Below are positions 4,362 to 20,509 of a stretch of DNA of 22,400 nt, in pieces; positions within the stretch are counted from its first letter, which is position 1; every line of letters begins with the position of its first letter. Source of the DNA: a virus; IMG/VR virus record IMGVR_UViG_3300028548_001868, positions 1-22,400 of that record, one strand, 5' to 3'. The translations under genes were made by a program, and so were the position numbers. A model generated the notes under the pieces. That model saw nothing but the letters and a program-made list of their open reading frames with translations. It searched no databases and had not been told where the DNA came from.

Positions 4362-4583
4362 ATGATTCAATCAATAGCCTTATTATTAATAATAGCAACC
4401 GTATTTATCTTTATAAGCAATCAAGTGGGTGCTGATGTACATATTCAACCTATTATTGGTCTTATGTTTGGAGCGTTATATTCCAAAGAAAGATTTGAAG
4501 AAGAAAACTTAGTACAAAATACCTTGCAATGCTGCATAGGTTTTATAAGTCTAACAGTAATATGGATAGAGAAAAAAGAATAA
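4362..4583 (+). CDS. Small membrane protein with two TM segments, unknown
   Basis: 73 residues. Hydrophobic segments lie at about 2-19 (I-Q-S-I-A-L-L-L-I-I-A-T-V-F-I-F-I) and 52-68 (L-Q-C-C-I-G-F-I-S-L-T-V-I-W-I), with a shorter one around 27-40. It starts 4 nt after the helicase stop and overlaps the sigma-like gene by 22 nt. I do not recognise the family. Being lodged between helicase and sigma genes, it could tether early functions to the membrane or act in superinfection exclusion, but this is guesswork. Confidence 0.55.
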   Translation: MIQSIALLLIIATVFIFISNQVGADVHIQPIIGLMFGALYSKERFEEENLVQNTLQCCIGFISLTVIWIEKKE

Positions 4584-5125
4584 TAGGGCTTGACTGGTTA
4601 AACATTGTAGCTAGTCAGCACGAAGATTGGATTAAAATAGTAAATGGCTTTGGCGAGTTTAATTATGCCGAGGACATCGTACAGGAAGCCTACATAAGAT
4701 TAATTAAATATGCGAAACCATACAACATTATCAAAGATAACAAAGTATCTAGGGGATATATGTTTTTTACTTTACGTTCAGTTTACTTTCAGTATTATAA
4801 TTCTAAAAGAAAAATACAGAAAGTTAGTATTGATGATGATAAAAACTTTTTACAAATAGCCGATGAAACTAATTTGGAAGAACACGAAGCCTTTAATAAG
4901 GTATGCACCCTTATAGATGAAGTTGCAGAGGAATGGAGTTGGTACGATAGGAAGCTATTTAACCTGTACCGAGATACTGATTTAAGTATAAGAAAAATAG
5001 CAGTAGAAACGAATATAAGTTGGGTATCTATATTTAATACATTAAAGAATTGTAAAACCGATGTCCGAAGTAAGTTAGGAGAAACGTACGAGGACTATAA
5101 AAATGAAGACTATGACAGAATTTAA
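4562..5125 (+). CDS. Sigma-70-family (ECF-like) RNA polymerase sigma factor
   Basis: 187 residues from the ATG at 4562; an upstream in-frame start at 4529 falls inside the previous gene. Residues 35-53 (Y-A-E-D-I-V-Q-E-A-Y-I-R-L-I-K-Y) match sigma region 2.1-2.2, where 'AEDxxQExFxxL' binds the beta' coiled coil. Residues 66-83 may be region 2.3-2.4. Residues 129-171 (Y-D-R-K-L-F-N-L-Y-R-D-T-D-L-S-I-R-K-I-A) followed by V-S-I-F-N-T-L-K-N form a region 4-like helix-turn-helix. It could direct host RNA polymerase to phage promoters or act as a transcriptional regulator. The start is in the overlap with the membrane protein gene, and the end overlaps the next gene by 23 nt. Confidence 0.72.
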   Translation: MDREKRIIGLDWLNIVASQHEDWIKIVNGFGEFNYAEDIVQEAYIRLIKYAKPYNIIKDNKVSRGYMFFTLRSVYFQYYNSKRKIQKVSIDDDKNFLQIADETNLEEHEAFNKVCTLIDEVAEEWSWYDRKLFNLYRDTDLSIRKIAVETNISWVSIFNTLKNCKTDVRSKLGETYEDYKNEDYDRI

Positions 5126-12361: not shown

Positions 12362-13024
12362 ATGAAAGTAGAAATACAAATACCAAGTAGTTTATCTGAA
12401 ATAACACTAGAGCAATACCAAAAGTTTGCTAAGTTAAATACAGATGAGAACCAAGACAGCAGCTTCTTAATGCATAAGACTGTAGAGCTGTTTTGCAACC
12501 TCAACCTGAAGGATATTGCCAAGATTAAATACATCTACGTCCAAGAGATACTAAACGATATAAACAAACTGTTTGAAACTAAGCAGGACTTGATACCAAC
12601 ATTTACGATGAAGGGTGTTGACTATGGCTTTGTTCCTGTATTGGATGATATGACACTAGGAGAGTATATTGATTTAGATGAGAACTTTACCGATTGGGAT
12701 ATGATGCACAAAGCTATGGCGGTTCTTTACAGACCTATTACATTACAAAAGGGAGACAGATACCAAATAGAAGAATACGAAGGATTAGAGCGAGCTGATA
12801 TGATGAAGCAAATGCCATTGAGTGTGGTAATGGGTTGTATGTTTTTTTTTTACAATTTAAACAACGAACTACTCAAAACTACCCTGAACTATTTGAGTCA
12901 GGAAATACCGAAGGAACTGACTACGGAGCAGCTACAAACTTTGGCAAAAAATGGGGGTGGTACCAGTCACTCTATGGACTCTCTAAAGGCGATGTTAGAA
13001 GATTTGAATATATCACTAAACTAA
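12362..13024 (+). CDS. Tail assembly chaperone, zero-frame product (gpG-like)
   Basis: 220 residues from the ATG at 12362; the in-frame TTG at 12350 is a poorer start. An N-terminal domain (L-S-E-I-T-L-E-Q-Y-Q-K-F at 11-22, V-P-V-L-D-D-M-T-L-G-E-Y-I-D-L at 91-105) is followed by Y-R-P-I-T at 123-127 and a hydrophobic helix with F-F-F-Y-N-L at 161-166. The C-terminal 50 residues are polar and end S-M-D-S-L-K-A-M-L-E-D-L, as in chaperones of other Bacteroidota phages as I recall them. Its place at the head of the tail genes, with an overlapping -1 ORF behind a ten-T run, fits a G/GT-type chaperone pair that loads the tape measure. Family membership is inferred. Confidence 0.68.
   Translation: MKVEIQIPSSLSEITLEQYQKFAKLNTDENQDSSFLMHKTVELFCNLNLKDIAKIKYIYVQEILNDINKLFETKQDLIPTFTMKGVDYGFVPVLDDMTLGEYIDLDENFTDWDMMHKAMAVLYRPITLQKGDRYQIEEYEGLERADMMKQMPLSVVMGCMFFFYNLNNELLKTTLNYLSQEIPKELTTEQLQTLAKNGGGTSHSMDSLKAMLEDLNISLN
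12842..12851 (+). promoter_or_regulatory. Slippery run of ten T's, probable -1 frameshift site
   Basis: Zero-frame codons here are TTT TTT TTT TAC. A slip of -1 after the third TTT gives TTA CAA and opens the frame that runs to 13104. It supplies the X-XXY-YYZ pairing of a classical slippery site on both tRNAs. A sequencing error in the homopolymer is the alternative, weighed in the findings. Confidence 0.65.
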
Positions 13025-13104
13025 ACTTTCACGAGTGCTTTATGTTTTTAGCATTTGAAAAAGAAAAGAACCAACTAGAAGCAAAACTAATTAAGAACAG
13101 ATGA
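12850..13104 (+). CDS. Tail assembly chaperone -1 frame extension (T domain of a GT-type fusion)
   Basis: Starting at 12850 in the -1 frame there are 84 codons before the TGA at 13102-13104. The product ends W-G-W-Y-Q-S-L-Y-G-L-S-K-G-D, then V-R-R-F-E-Y-I-T-K-L-N-F-H-E-C-F-M-F-L-A-F-E-K-E-K, an ordered helical domain with no look of a shadow frame. Joined to the first 163 residues of the zero-frame protein it gives a 247-residue fusion. Its stop codon overlaps the next start (ATGA at 13101-13104), the spacing expected if ribosomes reach that stop. The pair recalls lambda G and GT, in which the T part binds the tape measure and tail tube proteins. Confidence 0.66.
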   Translation, partial: LQFKQRTTQNYPELFESGNTEGTDYGAATNFGKKWGWYQSLYGLSKGDVRRFEYITKLNFHECFMFLAFEKEKNQLEAKLIKNR

Positions 13105-13556
13105 CAGGATTTTATAACGTAACAAAGAAAATAAAGGATGCACTTAATGCCGAGCCTTTTGTTAATACTGTTTCTTATGGCAGCTTAGACGATGTGGATT
13201 TGAATAAGCAGACCATCTTCCCGTTATCTCACATAATAGTAAACAACTGCAACGTTGCATCTAATACAATGACGTTTAACATTAGTATTCTTGCTATGGA
13301 TATTGTAGATGAATCCAAAGACGAGGTTACAGATATATTTGTAGGCAATGACAACGAACAGGACGTACTTAATACCCAGTTAGAAGTTATTAATAGGGTT
13401 GTATCAATACTACAAAGAGGTGATTTATATACTGACTTATTCCAAGTGGATGGAGCGGTAGGATGTGAGCCGTTTGTAGATAGGTTTGAAAACAAGCTAG
13501 CTGGATGGGCTGCAACATTTGATGTATTAGTTAAAAACGATATGACCATATGTTAA
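13101..13556 (+). CDS. Tail completion/terminator-like protein
   Basis: 151 residues, mixed alpha/beta: an N-terminal helix (Y-N-V-T-K-K-I-K-D-A-L), strands with I-F-P-L-S-H-I-I-V at 39-47, N-T-M-T-F-N-I-S-I-L-A-M-D at 55-67, a long helix V-L-N-T-Q-L-E-V-I-N-R-V-V-S-I-L at 88-103, and W-A-A-T-F-D-V-L-V at 136-144. This arrangement and length suit tail terminator or neck proteins. It begins in the stop of the chaperone fusion and overlaps the next gene by 7 nt. The fold is inferred from pattern and position; I would not exclude another head-tail connector. Confidence 0.6.
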   Translation: MTGFYNVTKKIKDALNAEPFVNTVSYGSLDDVDLNKQTIFPLSHIIVNNCNVASNTMTFNISILAMDIVDESKDEVTDIFVGNDNEQDVLNTQLEVINRVVSILQRGDLYTDLFQVDGAVGCEPFVDRFENKLAGWAATFDVLVKNDMTIC

Positions 13557-14056
13557 CCAACACTAAAGAATCTTTAGAGAAGTTTAGAAGGTTTGTTGCA
13601 CAACAATCACGAAGCAGATTAACTAAGGGCAAAAAGAACGTTTCTAAGGGACTCTATAAGAAGTTGGATGGTGTTTTAACGGTTAGCCCTAATTCGTTTA
13701 AACTAAGCTGGGATTTAGGCTATGGTAATTTCCAAGATAAAGGTGTAAGCGGAACTGAAAAGAAGTACGATACTCCTTATAGCTATAAAGGTAAAATGCC
13801 ACCTGTTAAACCATTAGCGGATTGGGCAAAAGCAAAGGGTCTTAAATTAAGAGACTCAAAGGGTAGGTTTCAAAAAGGTGGTTATATGACATTAGGTTTC
13901 TTAATTGCAAGAAGCATACAGAAGAAAGGTTTAAAGCCTAGCCTATTTTTTACCAAACCATTTGAACAGGGTTTTAAGAAACTACCAGATGAACTACTAG
14001 AGGCATACGGTTTAGACGTAGAAGAGTTTTTACAATTTACATTAAATAAAAAATAA
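13550..14056 (+). CDS. Neck / head-tail joining protein, HK97 gp10-like
   Basis: 168 residues. Notable are L-S-W-D-L-G-Y-G-N-F-Q-D-K-G-V at 52-66 and P-Y-S-Y-K-G-K-M-P-P-V-K-P-L-A-D-W-A at 76-93, then L-G-F-L-I-A-R-S-I at 115-123 and P-S-L-F-F-T-K-P-F at 130-138. 'YGxFQDxGV' with a following 'PP...W' and a helix ending 'IxxxGxxPxxFFxxxF' is the usual form of HK97 gp10-like neck or tail-component proteins. It overlaps its upstream neighbour by 7 nt and joins the next by TAATG. It probably sits between portal and tail tube. Confidence 0.72.
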   Translation: MLTNTKESLEKFRRFVAQQSRSRLTKGKKNVSKGLYKKLDGVLTVSPNSFKLSWDLGYGNFQDKGVSGTEKKYDTPYSYKGKMPPVKPLADWAKAKGLKLRDSKGRFQKGGYMTLGFLIARSIQKKGLKPSLFFTKPFEQGFKKLPDELLEAYGLDVEEFLQFTLNKK

Positions 14057-18707: not shown

Positions 18708-18854
18708 ATGATAGAAAACATTTTACAAATGCTAGAGATAGCAAAGAGAGAAAAGCAAATAGGGAAATTAACTCACATTGCATTAGGTAAAAACAAATAT
18801 CCTGAATCAATAAAAGAAGCATACAAACAATTTAAAAATGAATTATGTCAGTAA
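18708..18854 (+). CDS. 48-residue micro-protein before the tape measure
   Basis: ATG at 18708, 9 nt after the previous stop; TAA at 18852-18854 overlaps the tape measure start (18845). The product is a charged helical pair (I-L-Q-M-L-E-I-A-K-R-E-K-Q-I-G-K-L-T and Y-P-E-S-I-K-E-A-Y-K-Q-F). The overlap makes translational coupling likely. It might be a tape measure helper; no family recognised. Confidence 0.5.
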   Translation: MIENILQMLEIAKREKQIGKLTHIALGKNKYPESIKEAYKQFKNELCQ

Positions 18855-20509
18855 CAAAGACCATTGAGATAGAAGCTAGGGTAGATAAAGCTGAAAAAGA
18901 CTTAGAAGGTGTTGCAAAATCTGTACAAAAGATAGATAAGAACTTAGAAGATGTAAAGGATTCGTCTAACGTAGCAGCTAAAGGTATTAAGGGAATTGGT
19001 ACGGCTTTAAAAGCTGCAGGTATTGGTTTAGCGATTGCAGCATTTGGAAAGCTAGTATAAGTTTTTAATCAAAACCAAAAAGTTGCAGATGCATTTAATA
19101 TAACCTTTGAAACACTTAGTTTAGGATTTAATGATTTCTTTAATTTTTTAGATAGAAATATAGGTAATGTAATTGATTATTTTAAGGCAATATTTGATAA
19201 TCCTTTAGAATCGGTTAAAAATTTAGGTAAAGCAATACAGGATAACATTACAGAAAGAGTTCGAAGTGCCATTGAGATGTTTGGGTTTTTAGGTAAAGCA
19301 ATAAAACAAGTGTTTGAAGGAGACTTTGAAGGAGCTTTAGATTCTGCTAGTGAGGCTTATAGCGAATATATTGATGTATGGACTGGTGTCGACAATACTG
19401 TTGGTAAAGTAAGTAAAGCATTTTCAGATGCTTCAACATCAATTTCAGGCTATGTTAAAAACACGGTTGCTGCGGCTAAATCAAATGTAGACCTAACTAA
19501 ATCCGCAGAAGTTGCAGCGGTTATGCAACAAGGGTTGATTGAAAAATACGATAGACAGGCAGAACTTCAAAGACAGATTAGAGATGATGAATCTAAAAGT
19601 ATTGAAGAACGTATAGCGGCAAATGTTGAACTTGGTAGAATTTTAGACGAACAAGAAACATCAATGCTAGAACTTGCAGATTTGCAATTAGCGGCTGCTC
19701 AAGCACAATTTGATAAAAACCAGAATCAAGAAAACTATATAGCTTTATTAGAAGCACAAAACGAAAAGGAAGCGGTACAAGCACAAATTGCAGGTTTCCG
19801 TTCAGAACAGCTAACTAACATAAATTCTTTAGAAAGAGAACGTGTAGACTTAATAAAAGAAGAGCGAGAAAGTGATTTAGAATATTTTGCAGGGGAAGCT
19901 GACCGAAAAGCAAAAAAAGATGAAGATAAAAAGAAATCACACGAGGAAGATTTAAAACAAAAGGAAGAGATAAGACAAGCTGCCTTAAACAACTTAGATA
20001 CTATAATTGCCGTAGCAGGTCAAGAAACAAAAATAGGTAGAGCATTATTTATTGCTAAACAAGCGATGCTGGTTAAAGAACAAATTGCTAGAGCTAAAGC
20101 AACATTAAATGAAATAACTTTAAAAGGTGTTGCCGCAGGTGTTGATGCAGGGGCTGGATTTATGAAAACTGCAGCTGCTGGTTTTCCAGGAAACATTCCT
20201 TTACTAATTGCTTTCGGAACGCAAGTAGCAGGAATATTTAGCACAATTAAATCAGCATCAAATGCAGCTAAAGGTAGTGCATCTAAAATGGGAGCAAGCG
20301 GTGGAGGTTCTGTTTCTATGCCTAGAATGTCTGCTGCCGCATCAGCACCACCTGCGTTTAACGTTGTAGGAGCGAGCGAAACAAACCAACTAGCACAATC
20401 CATCGGGCAAGACGAGAAACAGCCTATAAAAGCCTTTGTGGTGTCTAATGATGTAAGTAATGCACAAGCACTAGATAGAAATATTGTTGAAAGTGCTTCA
20501 ATAGGATAA
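18845..20509 (+). CDS. Tail tape measure protein gene, interrupted by an in-frame TAA
   Basis: One frame runs from the ATG at 18845 to the TAA at 20507-20509, 554 codons plus stop, but for a TAA at 19058-19060. Part 1 (71 residues) has an N-terminal helix of the V-D-K-A-E-K-D-L-E-G-V-A-K-S-V-Q-K-I-D type and a hydrophobic segment L-K-A-A-G-I-G-L-A-I-A-A-F-G-K-L-V. After the TAA the frame reads on (V-F-N-Q-N-Q-K-V-A-D-A-F-N) with no other stop for 482 codons; the first ATG comes at 19277. The rest is coiled-coil (Q-A-Q-F-D-K-N-Q-N-Q-E and a K/E-rich block near 20% from the end) and a hydrophobic C-terminal part at 20110-20260. Tape measure proteins set tail length. The break could be a mutation, a recoding site or an error. 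Confidence 0.72.
19058..19060 (+). other. In-frame TAA splitting the tape measure gene
   Basis: Sense codons flank it on both sides (CTA GTA TAA GTT TTT), and the frame is open far downstream. A GAA, CAA or AAA codon would be changed to TAA by one base, and the Val-x-Val-Phe-Asn context would suit Glu. Other genes here end in TAA, so a general TAA reassignment is excluded. Confidence 0.85.

Follow-up and report, generated by a model that had tools for sequence, protein, structure and literature searches.

The window, by which we mean the whole stretch of DNA analysed, is a viral record of 22.4 kb, and the features of the locus under study are collected in Table 1. When the sequence is read directly, the zero frame starts with an ATG at 12362, reads ATG TTT TTT TTT TAC through a run of ten T's and stops with a TAA at 13022-13024. 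Past the run, the -1 frame is open from 12850 up to a TGA at 13102-13104, which overlaps the ATG at 13101 of the next gene. The initial annotation had proposed a 220-aa zero frame and an 84-codon -1 frame overlapping at this run, with the -1 stop and the following start joined as ATGA, and the direct reading bears out both points; the -1 stop also lies inside an ATGA in 152 of the 168 complete relatives, whose -1 extension spans 81-88 codons. The predicted sizes of the two products, 220 and 247 aa, are likewise sound as arithmetic, since a -1 shift gives 163 + 84 = 247 aa for the extended form. The rapid closure of the +1 frame (Table 1) recurs, after the same two codons, in 77 of the 84 non-redundant relatives.

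Table 1. Positions in the window of the probable chaperone gene, its putative slip site and the neighbouring genes discussed in the text
Feature	Position	Strand	Remarks
Zero-frame ORF, probable tail assembly chaperone	12362..13024	+	Short (gpG-like) form, 220 aa; read directly
Putative slip site, T10	12842..12851	+	Zero frame TTT TTT TTT T(AC), in-phase U_UUU_UUU inside; read directly
-1-frame extension	12850..13104	+	84 codons and TGA; gpT-like domain, helical, KWGWY motif
Overlap in which both frames appear to code	12852..13024	+	From third-position diversity
+1 frame past the run	12852..12860	+	ACA ATT TAA, closed after 2 codons
Next gene, 151 aa	13101..13556	+	ATG overlapping the -1 stop
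168-aa gene	13550..14056	+	P12024L homologue matches HK97-gp10_like weakly, below the Pfam cut-off
Tape-measure-like gene	18845..20509	+	In-frame TAA at 19058-19060

The window and its relatives share the gene order terL, chaperone, 151-aa gene, gp10-like gene and, further downstream, tape-measure-like gene and protease, an order that is found in outline also in phage P12024L. The 151-aa gene is perhaps a tail terminator. Some 5.8 kb separate the chaperone gene from the tape-measure-like gene downstream of it; hence, the position in the tail cluster claimed previously holds in part, in that the gene belongs to a tail block upstream of the tape measure, but it follows terL instead of standing between the major tail protein and the tape measure. 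The TAA in the tape-measure-like ORF, a single one falling after 71 codons, would be a private mutation or a sequence error; the ORF is open in nine relatives (530-585 aa). Elsewhere in the window, an endolysin (Peptidase M15) is encoded at 643-1032 and is followed by a holin-like gene (1051-1431), and the only other A/T homopolymer of at least nine is an A9 run at 1762-1770, in an 85-aa ORF (1592-1849).

The product of the gene is probably a tail assembly chaperone of the lambda G/GT type, the identity that best fits its layout, its tail neighbours and some weak fold matches. Sequence searches of both products in Pfam, NCBIfam, PHROGs and PDB gave no functional match. The zero-frame product has a predicted fold with a mean pLDDT of 83, and the -1 domain is predicted to be helical (pLDDT 82). 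In BFVD, the zero-frame model matches proteins of P12024S and of uncultured phages, as well as the Flavobacterium phage 6H protein R9VW65 (E 5.7e-5), taken to be gp10 of that phage on the basis of protein length; a protein annotated as a tail assembly chaperone is matched too, but weakly (E 0.043, prob 0.97, TM ~0.4). The search of PDB folds with the same model returned nothing significant, and the matches obtained with VIA-align were set aside as generic helices. The lambda G/GT scheme, reportedly due to Xu, Hendrix and Duda, had been invoked in the initial annotation. The frame arrangement, its conservation and the gene block agree with that scheme; as to relationship, the comparison with the lambda G/T profiles gave no sequence match, and the fold match to the annotated chaperone is weak.

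The relatives were collected by scanning IMG/VR, which yielded 65 close relatives and then several hundred more from diverse queries. In the survey of the junction, the -1 domain was located by profile HMM and the longest homopolymer was taken, no T run being required beforehand. An unbroken T run was found at the junction in all the 262 unique relatives (T9 in 216, T10 in 44 and T12 in two), runs of 7 or 8 T's being absent from these sites, and a later scan added 12 loci, all with T9. The sole non-T match of the survey (L316) was recognised as a chance match and is not among the 262. The T9 run is kept even in contigs with a GC content of 51-57% (L237, L238 and L319). In the 259 unique loci in which both domains could be scored, the N-terminal and the -1 domains lie in frames -1 apart, and neither among these nor in the later 12-locus scan were they found in the same frame. 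Thus, the comparison suggested in the initial annotation, concerning run length and the occurrence of a single continuous ORF, speaks for a genuine frame switch, as the close relatives of the window also carry T10 and no continuous ORF exists in the 259. Beside these, one odd locus (L042:1946-2700) has an N-terminal half of the window's gene family and a C-terminal half that belongs to a distant family of chaperones, carries a T10 where they meet, and looks like a recombinant or a chimeric assembly. Genome scans at the phylum and family level with the -1 domain retrieved few contigs (L312, L314 and L315), L317 being, like L316, a chance match. The most distant -1 domains had diverged too far for their alignment to seed another scan.

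The named relatives are the Nonlabens phages P12024L and P12024S, a Flagellimonas onchidii contig, and Winogradskyella and Bacteroidetes MAG contigs; therefore, the hosts of the phages harboring the T-run gene are most likely Bacteroidota. A fifth contig with the gene belongs to a MAG labelled Epsilonproteobacteria. The window also encodes a sigma-factor-like protein at 4529-5125 (PHROG 1740, E 5.7e-10), and a protein with sigma-70 region 2 is found in P12024L. Since both genomes carry sigma-like proteins, these phages seem to rely on the RNA polymerase of the host.

The idea that both frames are functional had led to the expectation of low synonymous change in the overlap, which is what we found. 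Indeed, among the 84 non-redundant relatives, third-position diversity amounts to 0.55 for the zero frame upstream of the slip and to 0.45 for the -1 frame downstream of the zero-frame stop, and it drops within the overlap to about 0.35 in both frames (0.35 and 0.34). Moreover, the zero frame stays open past the slip for a median of 57 codons (range 54-78), whereas in synonymous re-draws of the -1 frame it stays open for a median of 6 codons, and only 3.6% of these reach 50. The openness of the zero frame thus exceeds what coding in the -1 frame alone yields, and both overlapping frames look constrained. These patterns support a genuine, conserved and programmed frame transition, leading to a short and an extended predicted product. 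Of the programmed -1 frameshift originally proposed, the frame transition conserved in 259 relatives stands; a slip of the ribosome is not established, and the data lean to transcriptional slippage.

We suggest, with a probability of roughly 0.6, that the switch at the T run is due to slippage of the RNA polymerase with insertion of one U. According to this model, the polymerase would slip on nine or more uninterrupted T's, giving rise to mRNA with one additional U, whose ordinary translation would enter the -1-frame domain and yield a minor product of 247 aa whose C-terminus differs. The templated mRNA would give the major 220-aa short form, and translation of transcripts in the remaining wrong frame would terminate after about two codons. 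The two frames, their conservation, the constant minimum length of the run and the lack of a stimulator are observed, whereas we infer that it is the polymerase that slips, that the short product predominates and that the gene serves tail assembly. The strongest competing reading, tentative in our opinion, is that the two products are made by ribosomal -1 slippage, with tandem tRNA-Phe on U_UUU_UUU, as in lambda G/GT. All the 262 sites contain this heptamer in phase, as any run of nine T's does, and known tail chaperone frameshifts have been described as ribosomal, some of them without stimulatory signals and with low efficiency (PMC5009743); the lambda gpG:gpGT ratio is about 30:1 (PMC5009743). 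It is also possible that ribosome and RNA polymerase both slip here.

The length of the run is a first element on which the two readings differ. A ribosomal heptamer requires just seven T's, yet runs of seven or eight are found at none of the 262 sites. The run occurs in three codon phases, while its length remains at least nine: the L062/L303 group, L115 and L314 have one T to the left of TTT TTT, and all of them have two T's to the right, and the L224 lineage has no T to the right and three to the left. If left and right extensions were paired at random, the probability of obtaining no run shorter than nine would be P=0.00065 among 33 clusters (60% identity) and P=0.004 among 12 clusters (50% identity), in what is less than a full phylogenetic test and with the phase-shift argument resting on four lineages. 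A dual-frame amino-acid constraint may explain part of the run, as F-F is preceded by a hydrophobic residue in the zero frame and the -1 domain starts with Leu or Phe.

The codons used at the junction and its surroundings point in the same direction. U_UUU_UUC is an effective ribosomal frameshift motif in E. coli (PMC4066793) and should be tolerated by ribosomal slippage, yet TTC, which accounts for about 20% of the Phe codons of the chaperone gene, is found within the TTT TTT pair in none of the 84 non-redundant relatives. Neither kind of ribosomal stimulator sought was found, as a downstream stem-loop is absent from the 84 sequences, with folding z close to 0 and no consensus structure from RNAalifold, and Shine-Dalgarno-like motifs upstream of the slip occur in 4 of the 84 relatives, more rarely than in the background. 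The window's own hairpin begins about 32 nt past the slip. The anti-Shine-Dalgarno sequence plays a much smaller role in Flavobacterium than in E. coli (PMC8710568); nonetheless, the frameshifting of Flavobacterium prfB uses a Shine-Dalgarno-like element.

Long runs are also avoided elsewhere. In 862 other phage genes, compared with synonymous shuffles, T runs of at least nine were observed three times against 18 expected, and A runs of at least nine 11 times against 53; two of the four T runs of at least nine listed in phage genes belong to additional copies of the chaperone gene. Against this background, the presence of such a run at every junction surveyed goes beyond chance. In 260 kb of the Flagellimonas genome, there is no T run and one A run of at least nine, against 4.3 and 13 expected, respectively, and T7 is not avoided (36 versus 41.5 expected). 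In many bacterial genomes, too, avoidance sets in at nine (PMC1088944). The avoidance of long runs may reflect indel mutation of the DNA. The depletion of T7 elsewhere in these phages is no greater in phase than out of phase, a finding that does not favour the ribosome. Lastly, unstimulated heptamers in E. coli reach at most about 10 times a background of 0.055% (PMC4066793), and E. coli RNA polymerase gives about 5% and 10% of insertion-type rescue on T7 and T8 (PMC6260861), all these efficiencies having been measured in E. coli, whereas the hosts here are probably Bacteroidota. Because a run length of at least nine is kept, TTC is absent, stimulators are lacking and long runs are avoided elsewhere, and in view of the E. 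coli efficiencies, we favour slippage of the polymerase; apart from run length, these lines of support are circumstantial.

Much less probable is the idea that the -1 ORF stands alone as a gene translated from a start codon of its own, with no fusion product. A TTG does exist upstream in the -1 frame, at 12835 of the window, and P12024L is annotated with two unlinked genes. However, in 47 of the 84 non-redundant relatives, no ATG, GTG or TTG is present in the -1 frame from the upstream stop to residue 12 of the domain, an ATG start candidate exists in only four of the 84, and a separate gene would have no need of the invariant run at the junction. The weakest explanation, a pseudogene or a single ORF that seems interrupted because a homopolymer was miscounted in sequencing or assembly, may appeal to the error-prone nature of homopolymers and to distant viral proteins of 226-267 aa that in Foldseek seem to cover both domains in one ORF, but it is highly improbable, given the identical frame difference in 259 unique relatives, which come from isolate records and from numerous independent metagenomes, the open and constrained zero frame past the slip and the T10 shared with close relatives. 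Since both frames are constrained and no conserved -1 start codon exists, both an independent downstream gene and an assembly error are very unlikely. The BFVD proteins in question (A0A516L611, A0A6J5SVK3, A0A516L5A8 and similar ones), which match the models of the zero frame and of the -1 domain, are possibly distant relatives with one fused ORF, in which slippage might make the short form.

On this basis, it appears somewhat better than an even chance that polymerase slippage on nine or more T's fixes the proportion of the two chaperones in a large and diverse group of Bacteroidota phages, and that selection acts on the length of the run and not on a ribosomal heptamer. Tail chaperone frameshifts are textbook cases of ribosomal recoding. 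Both frameshifted tail chaperones and slippage on T9 are already known; in the open-access literature, we found neither a tail chaperone described as switching by transcriptional slippage nor an account of this T-run family of Bacteroidota phages. If true, slippage of this kind would be the transcriptional equivalent of the ribosomal frameshift in lambda G/GT, found in hosts that make little use of Shine-Dalgarno sequences, and would show a recoding arrangement in Bacteroidota, where Shine-Dalgarno pairing counts little. A widespread phage group appears to obtain both products with nothing more than a T9-T12 run, at which the alternative between polymerase and ribosome is directly testable. 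In addition, standard annotation misses or splits the T-run gene, as with the two hypothetical proteins of P12024L.

As for known systems, the locus resembles lambda G/GT in having a short N-terminal product and a C-terminal extension reached via the -1 frame, here predicted from the genes, and in lying in a tail block upstream of the tape measure gene. The lambda slip heptamer is G_GGA_AAG, whereas the slip site here is a T9-T12 homopolymer; unlike in lambda, moreover, the overlap spans about 57 codons and is apparently dual-coding, and the gene follows terL at about 5.8 kb from the tape-measure-like gene, so that the lambda position is only loosely matched. With no detectable sequence relation, the working would be analogous and common descent is not implied.

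Flavobacterium phage 6H gp10 is similar in profile (123 columns, prob 78) and has an annotated tape measure gene downstream of it, but it has only a T6 at its 3' end, where the -1 frame stops at once; since 6H gp10 lacks both the long run and an open -1 frame there, the T-run device is not universal in the wider family. The Nonlabens (Persicivirga) phages P12024L and P12024S share about 30% aa identity with the window's gene; P12024L has the same T9 site (CTT TTT TTT TAT), -1 domain and gene order, and differs in its annotation, in which genes 40 and 41 are separate hypothetical proteins (L067:12001-12695, JQ823123.1).

Transcriptional slippage on A9/T9 has been described for Shigella mxiE and spa13, Thermus dnaX and IS elements (PMC1088944, PMC5009743). 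Unlike these, the present case would concern a phage tail gene, and slippage is putative; like them, it has an A/T run of nine or more that is kept where two ORFs meet and avoided elsewhere, in a layout in which an inserted base would yield a fusion product.
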